From NCBI GenBank assembly GCA_018396535.1, contig JAGTQC010000006.1, positions 1 to 64,000 of the forward strand: a stretch of 64,000 nt of DNA, read 5' to 3'. Each line of letters starts with the position of its first letter. Positions within the stretch are counted from its first letter, which is position 1. Below, in pieces: positions 41,272 through 42,336 of this stretch. The DNA comes from Candidatus Bathyarchaeota archaeon. Lineage in GTDB: Archaea > Thermoproteota > CALKCG01 > B24 > DRYS01. The position numbers and the translations under genes were made by a program. A model generated the notes under the pieces. The model was not told the origin of the DNA. It was given only the letters and a program-made list of their open reading frames with translations, and searched no databases.

Positions 41272-42336
41272 ATGACTCTGCTAGAGCTACCGGTTGTTAG
41301 GAAAGCTAAGCTTCAAGAAGCGTTAGGCGATGGTAGAGTTAAATGTATGCTTTGCGAGAGAAAATGCATAATCCATGACGGTGGTAGAGGCTTCTGTAAA
41401 ACCAGGATTAACATAGCTGGTGAACTCTATACGATAGTCTATGGGGATATAAACGCTATATCAGAGAATCCTATCGAGAAAGGGGGTTAACCCCCCTCGA
41501 TAAAACCCTTCTACCACTATTGGCCTGGTACTATAGCTTTAACATTCTCTACTTGGAGCTGTAACTTTCCATGTCCATGGTGCCAGAATTGGCATTTATC
41601 CAAACTAGAGCCTAACCCATATAGAGCGAACTATATATCGGTCGATAGGATGGTGGATCTAGCTGTTAAATCTAGATGTAGAGGTTTATCTGTATCGTTT
41701 ACAGAACCCACACTCCTCTTCGAATACTGTCTAGACCTATTCCCTCTAGCTAGATCTAGAGGATTATACTGCAATTTTGTTTCAAACGGTTATATGACTC
41801 TAGAAGCTTTACGTATGCTGGTAGAAGCTGGTATGGATGGGCTTAAGATAGATGTGAAGGGGTGTAGCAACTCTGTTCGTAGATACTGTTTAGCTGATAT
41901 CGATGTATGTTGGAGGAATGCCTCTAAAGCTTTAGAGATGGGTGTACATGTAGAGATAGTGAATCTAGTAATACCTGGCGTAAACGATTCAGAAGAGTGT
42001 ATAGAGGAGGTTTGTAAAAAGCATATAGAGAGTGTAGGTGATGAAACACCCCTACACTTCACAGCCTACTATCCAGCTTATAGATTCACCAATCCTCCTA
42101 CACCAGTATCCAAGTTGGAGGAGGCTTATAGGATAGCTAAAGGTTATGGGTTGAAATACGTGTATATAGGTAACGTACCTGGGCATCCATACGAGAATAC
42201 ATACTGCCCTGAATGTGGTGAACTACTTATAAAACGCTACGGTTTAACATTGATATCTGTAAAACTTACGAAGGATAAGAAATGTCCTAGATGTGGTTGT
42301 AGCATACCTATAAGAGGAGATATACACACTATCTAG
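41272..42336 (+). pseudogene. AmrS-type radical SAM protein, interrupted by a 21-bp insertion with an in-frame stop
   Basis: The frame encodes an AmmeMemoRadiSam (AmrS) protein. It has KCMLCERKCIIHDGGRGFC, then SENPIEK, followed by an insertion of seven codons including TAA (41488-41490). KPFYHYWPGTIALTFSTWSC then continues with the radical SAM motif C-x3-C-x2-C (CNFPCPWC). The barrel follows (FTEPTLLFEYCLDL, GLKIDVKGC, VIPGVNDSEE). The C-terminus has a Cys pair (YCPECGELL, CPRCGC). The reading frame is the same on both sides, so removing 21 bp restores a normal protein of about 347 residues. A restart at ATG 41650 would lack the cluster motif. It is therefore inactive, spliced, or a sequence error. 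Confidence 0.85.
41472..41502 (+). repeat. Palindromic insertion inside the amrS-like gene
   Basis: The core GGGGGTTAACCCCC (41482-41495) is a perfect palindrome. It is flanked by TATCGAG (41472-41478) and its complement CTCGATA (41496-41502), with a 3-nt AAA bulge at 41479-41481. The inserted 21 bp (41482-41502) lie between two Lys codons that adjoin in the family. The fold-back form could reflect a mobile footprint or an assembly or template-switch artefact. Confidence 0.75.

Follow-up and report, generated by a model that had tools for sequence, protein, structure and literature searches.

A predicted bulge-helix-bulge mini-intron within the coding sequence of an archaeal AmrS-like radical SAM gene

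Can a gene whose reading frame is broken by a stop codon inside a perfect palindrome still encode a working enzyme? The question is raised by an AmrS-like radical SAM gene on the forward strand of a 64,000-nucleotide window (positions 1 to 64,000 of contig JAGTQC010000006.1) of Candidatus Bathyarchaeota archaeon, a hot-spring-type archaeon. The gene starts at an ATG at 41272 and runs into a TAA at 41488–41490, after which the frame reopens at 41503 and continues to a stop at 42336. The cause is a 21-bp insert, GGGGGTTAACCCCCCTCGATA, which occupies 41482–41502 when its ends are defined by homology and carries in its CTCGATA an inverted copy of the upstream TATCGAG (41472–41478). The RNA fold at the site has a predicted free energy of −26.1 kcal/mol (z = −2.96). 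An earlier note, made from this sequence, had described the open frame on both sides and the palindrome with its flanking repeat, and both descriptions hold; it was also right that the site forms a strong hairpin, but it overlooked that the AAA at 41479–41481 forms a three-nucleotide bulge between two helices, a signature that explains the insert. Of the three origins it offered (an inactivating insertion, a fold-back artefact or an element removed from RNA), our analysis favors the last.

We infer from genome sequence that positions 41481–41501 are very probably a bulge-helix-bulge (BHB) intron in the AmrS-like mRNA, excised by the tRNA-splicing endonuclease EndA and sealed by the ligase RtcB. 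The two parts of the gene match complementary portions of one family profile, NCBIfam TIGR04337 (AmmeMemoRadiSam radical SAM enzyme): the upstream piece corresponds to profile positions 4–59 and the downstream piece to 60–330, so that the two abut exactly, without a gap. Scored apart, exon 2 reaches 195.5 and exon 1 37.4 against a curated cut-off of 220 bits. The radical SAM domain, with its C-x3-C-x2-C cluster motif and a PF04055 match (E = 1.6e-18), lies in the downstream piece. As the earlier note had proposed, taking out the insert restores the adjacent lysines of the family in I-E-K-K-P.

The features of the predicted intron can be laid out along the pre-mRNA. Exon 1 (41272–41480) ends in N-P-I-E-K, its last lysine codon being split by the intron, which reads A GGGGG TTAA CCCCC CTCG AT and includes the in-frame TAA. 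In the proposed fold, CGAG at the end of exon 1 (41475–41478) would pair with CTCG within the intron (41496–41499) to form a central 4-bp helix, leaving AAA (41479–41481) and ATA (41500–41502) as the 5' and 3' bulges, while GGGGG-TTAA-CCCCC (41482–41495) would close an internal hairpin. A heteromeric tRNA-splicing endonuclease would cut after the second of the three bases in both bulges, at 41480/41481 and 41501/41502, following the rule published for archaea (PMC2738675). RtcB would then ligate the exons and the 21-nt intron would be freed, the predicted joint running from ...ATCGAGAA to AAAACCC.... Exon 2 (41502–42336) would supply the remainder of the lysine codon, followed by K-P-F-Y-H and the radical SAM domain, and the spliced message, reading ...N-P-I-E-K-K-P-F-Y-H..., would encode the complete AmrS-like enzyme. 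No other stop-interrupted joint of open frames in the window has a motif of this type that comes near it in stability.

Comparison with orthologues, which the earlier note had called for, shows that the insert is not peculiar to this genome. We compared seven genomes of the order, G000 being our own and G001 a congener, and an insert lies at the same place in all six that hold the site, which represent two families. The inserts differ in length and consequence: 21 nt with the in-frame TAA in G000, 20 nt with a frameshift in G001, 29 nt with a frameshift in both G004 and G006, and 33 nt with an in-frame TAA in both G002 and G005. The six genes form one clade (support 99/91 and 99/99 in two trees). 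We inspected about 110 further AmrS-like loci, some 100 of them outside the order and the rest in-order paralogues, which span Thermoprotei, Hadesarchaea, Archaeoglobi, Chloroflexi and others; those in which the site is present have no insert and read straight through as P-[IMA]-x-[KIV]-K-P or an equivalent, including L022, which was misaligned owing to an intein and reads straight on re-inspection. Among the in-order paralogues is an intronless AmrS-like gene of the same genome (C12:36214-37218; L113, L191), 40% identical to exon 2, which has no interruption in those genomes of the order where it is complete. In all the other strong matches from 398 searched genomes of the phylum, the frame is as long as expected of a gene that is uninterrupted or cut by a contig end, except in two genomes of family f28, which are taken up below. 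We also noted two AmrS-like genes (G114:C10:13229-14086 and G055:C6:4302-5123) with one in-frame TAG or TGA and a frame that is otherwise open.

The structure is shared by all the inserts of the order although their sequences are not. In each of the six, the 3' end of the insert offers a CTCG or CTCT that pairs with CGAG or AGAG of the exon, the 5' bulge is AAA, the 3' bulge is ATA, AGA or AAA, and the interior hairpin has 4–10 bp, its sequence being free to vary while its pairing is kept. The central 4-bp helix with two 3-nt bulges on opposite strands is present in 6/6 genes of the order and 2/2 of f28, and the AAA bulge is invariant in all eight. A script that used BHB geometry alone, with cuts set between bulge bases 2 and 3, returned one motif per insert and placed it at the homology-defined joint in every case, with an offset of −1/−1 that yields the identical product I-E-K-K-P. 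The BHB cuts remove exactly the insert in 6/6 genes, and I-E-K-K-P is restored whether the insert brings a stop or a frameshift; with the two f28 genes included, predicted and homology-defined joints agree in 8/8. Motifs with this geometry occur in the host genome at 0.0057 per strand-base, so a chance match at a given place would be unlikely even once.

The pairing also leaves a trace in the alignment of the six genomes. Of the alignment cells, 98.4% are paired, as against 45–60% when the 3' strand is slid by 1–3 columns, and at three pairs both partners vary. The outermost pair of the central helix is C-G in two genomes and A-U in four, and the exon base that covaries is the third base of the isoleucine codon, ATC being found with intron G and ATA with intron T. 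The shuffle counts are 4/500 for paired cells and likewise for the covariation score, figures that come from a small sample of related sequences and are supportive rather than probabilities. A covariance model of the AmrS introns, run over the order, found the AmrS sites only, plus weak matches, some of them at the joint of the intronless paralogue. An Rfam scan of the window returned tRNAs only; a group I or group II intron was considered and set aside, as 21 nt is far too short and the scan gave no match.

If the gene were instead a pseudogene inactivated by the insertion, the in-frame TAA, the lack of a start codon ahead of the cluster motif in the reopened frame, and the presence of an intact intronless paralogue would all be in keeping. 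The substitution pattern argues otherwise. Between G000 and G001 the ratio of nonsynonymous to synonymous substitution rates (dN/dS) is 0.10 for exon 1 (synonymous divergence, dS, 0.60; 50 codons) and 0.06 for exon 2 (dS 0.87; 270 codons), even though the congener's insert shifts the frame. These values indicate that both exons are under strong purifying selection and that the gene is alive, and with an insert that persists in six genomes of two families they make inactivation, the first of the note's options, very improbable. The remaining option, a sequencing or assembly artefact, draws on the fact that the insert is a perfect palindrome followed by an inverted copy of the flanking exon, as a fold-back would produce, but the same architecture recurs at the same site, with inserts of differing length and sequence, in genomes that were assembled independently and come from two groups far apart (six of the order and two of f28), and the base changes within it compensate one another; we give this explanation next to no weight. 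In sum, the insert is real, and neither an artefact nor the mark of a dead gene: relatives carry inserts at the same site, the BHB geometry is kept and both exons are under selection.

Two further explanations accept the insert as real and would dispense with splicing. Ribosomes are known to hop over a hairpin in phage T4 gene 60, and a comparable bypass, or another form of recoding, could be imagined here, where the hairpin follows a lysine codon and AAA or AAG recurs at its far side in the genomes of the order; to our knowledge, no case of bypassing has been described in archaea. A hop from AAA to AAA would leave a single lysine, one residue short of the two that separate I-E from P in relatives. 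The landing codon would be AAG in G001, G002 and G005, the f28 genes have no matching landing codon before their ATA, and bypassing has no need of the BHB geometry, a 4-bp helix with a 3-nt bulge on either strand, so that we regard it as highly improbable. A split gene, in which a second polypeptide starts within exon 2, has in its favor a downstream open frame of 277 codons and is the less credible of the two, its probability being close to negligible: in the window no in-frame ATG, GTG or TTG precedes C-x3-C-x2-C in that piece, the first ATG (41650) lying past the motif, and a split would leave the conserved BHB structure without a reason. The earlier note had correctly seen that a restart beyond the stop could not include the cluster motif.

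Several points tell against an intron spliced as we propose. Splicing is here a prediction from genome sequence. The seventh genome of the order, G003, which represents a third family, is uninformative, as it holds only the 3' part of the gene; the 5' part lies beyond the contig end, and no exon 1 was found for this truncated orthologue. The outer helix of the strict hBHBh' motif is nearly absent, there being about one extra pair in the relatives and three in the host genome, and the internal stem is shorter in the host genome and its congener than in the others. The AmrS motif is thus of the relaxed BHB type, which lowers confidence in a strict BHB but not in a BHB intron.

The genome also appears equipped to process such a motif. 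Of the seven genomes of the order, six, G000 among them, encode two PF01974 proteins each, and G006, which is 72% complete, encodes one. The higher-scoring G000 protein is closest to endonuclease chains 3p1z/3ajv, which we take to be the Aeropyrum pernix splicing endonuclease, and retains the catalytic Tyr, His and Lys (chain 3ajv has Ala in place of His), while the second (G000:C1:182466-182720) lacks the catalytic motif, as expected of a structural subunit. These two genes point to a heteromeric splicing endonuclease of the crenarchaeal type, its oligomeric state being deduced from sequence, and an RtcB ligase gene is also present (G000:C7:165752-167059). Splicing of cbf5 and of relaxed motifs has been attributed to the hetero-oligomeric form of the endonuclease (PMC2738675). 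As a separate observation, the RtcB gene of G004 (G004:C46:40697-43471; L179, L180) has an in-frame insertion of about 1.4 kb after profile position 50, giving a 1002-aa frame; the insertion is probably an intein.

The cbf5 gene served as a control. In all seven genomes of the order (L166–L172) a BHB-like structure splits its catalytic Asp codon behind the first base, which is the published place; a 2009 table gives an intron size of 0 for Thermoproteales, Korarchaeum and Thaumarchaeota (PMC2738675). A blind BHB survey of 400 kb of the host genome, a 28% sample, recovered the 34-nt cbf5 intron (C1:62867-62900) as its best candidate. Of its 173 lax candidates only cbf5 and one other stood out by energy density, and that other was rejected as the overlap of two operon genes. 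By this yield, mRNA introns are rare in this genome and the predicted AmrS intron is one of very few. ARAGORN found no tRNA introns in the same 400 kb, and the tRNA introns of this genome therefore could not be used for comparison.

The two f28 genomes (G227 and G075), which belong to another class and are distant from the order, have AmrS frames that end at the same place. Their BHB inserts (L237/L238), one of 30 nt with an in-frame stop and one of 31 nt that shifts the frame, lie 2 nt upstream of the site used in the order, and their removal restores P-I-E-I-K-P; in other families of f28's order and class the inserts are absent. The supported branches of a phylogeny built from 52 exon-2 proteins cannot be reconciled with fewer than two changes of intron label, and a single change does not suffice in any of 200 bootstrap trees, which means two gains or a transfer. 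The 5' ends of the introns are alike in the two lineages, AGGCTA in four genomes of the order and AGCCTA in G227. In the host genome the 3' end of the intron is an inverted copy of 7 nt of upstream exon, as fold-back copying at birth would leave. Inteins, called from family profiles and terminal motifs, lie nearby, at the third Cys of C-x3-C-x2-C: one of about 330 aa with LAGLIDADG-like motifs in G002 and G005 (L006, L007; 1483-3345, minus strand) and a mini-intein in G012 (L022; 1495-3006, minus strand). The AmrS gene of G002 and G005 thus seems to depend on splicing at two levels, RNA and protein. We suggest, tentatively and with more doubt than confidence, that AmrS has a hotspot of recurrent insertion at I-E-K/K-P, where BHB mini-introns arose on two or more occasions, in archaeal groups unrelated to each other and at positions 2 nt apart, with inteins about 25 codons downstream. 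At their birth a replication fork may have folded back and copied the upstream exon in inverted form, making the splice helix in one step; alternatively, the mini-introns may be what is left of homing introns.

Introns were regarded as almost absent from the protein genes of archaea. With AmrS as another host gene, and with gains in two separate lineages, cbf5 would no longer stand alone as a pre-mRNA spliced by the tRNA-splicing endonuclease, and the AmrS introns offer a comparative system for the birth of BHB introns. They also carry a warning for automated annotation, in which genes of this kind will be split or labelled as pseudogenes.

According to a 2020 report, the only BHB intron described in archaeal mRNA besides its own case in a 5' untranslated region (UTR) was that of cbf5 (PMC7714728); we found no later example within a coding sequence in the open literature, subscription journals being outside our scope. 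What appears to be new relative to cbf5 is a second host gene with a predicted coding BHB intron, recurring at one site in two lineages. The closest parallel remains the cbf5 pre-mRNA intron of Crenarchaeota (Watanabe 2002; Yokobori 2009, PMC2738675), which is likewise short (published sizes seen, 19–39 nt), relaxed in most published cases, cut after the second base of each bulge, variable in its interior and matched to the same type of endonuclease. Unlike that intron, which sits in the catalytic Asp codon, the AmrS introns lie in the I-E-K/K-P segment of a radical SAM enzyme and have two separate origins about 2 nt apart. The HVO_1309 intron of Haloferax volcanii is also an mRNA substrate of the splicing endonuclease, but it is found in the 5' UTR of a euryarchaeal host (PMC7714728), whereas the AmrS intron interrupts coding sequence. 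The putative 12-bp introns of an archaeal virus genome (Peng et al., as cited in PMC2738675) resemble it in being short and within coding sequence; in that citing account their splicing is not shown and in-frame read-through is possible, which the stops and frameshifts of the AmrS inserts rule out here. With archaeal tRNA introns, which range from 11 to 175 nt (PMC2738675), the AmrS intron would share both motif and machinery, the difference being that its host RNA is an mRNA.
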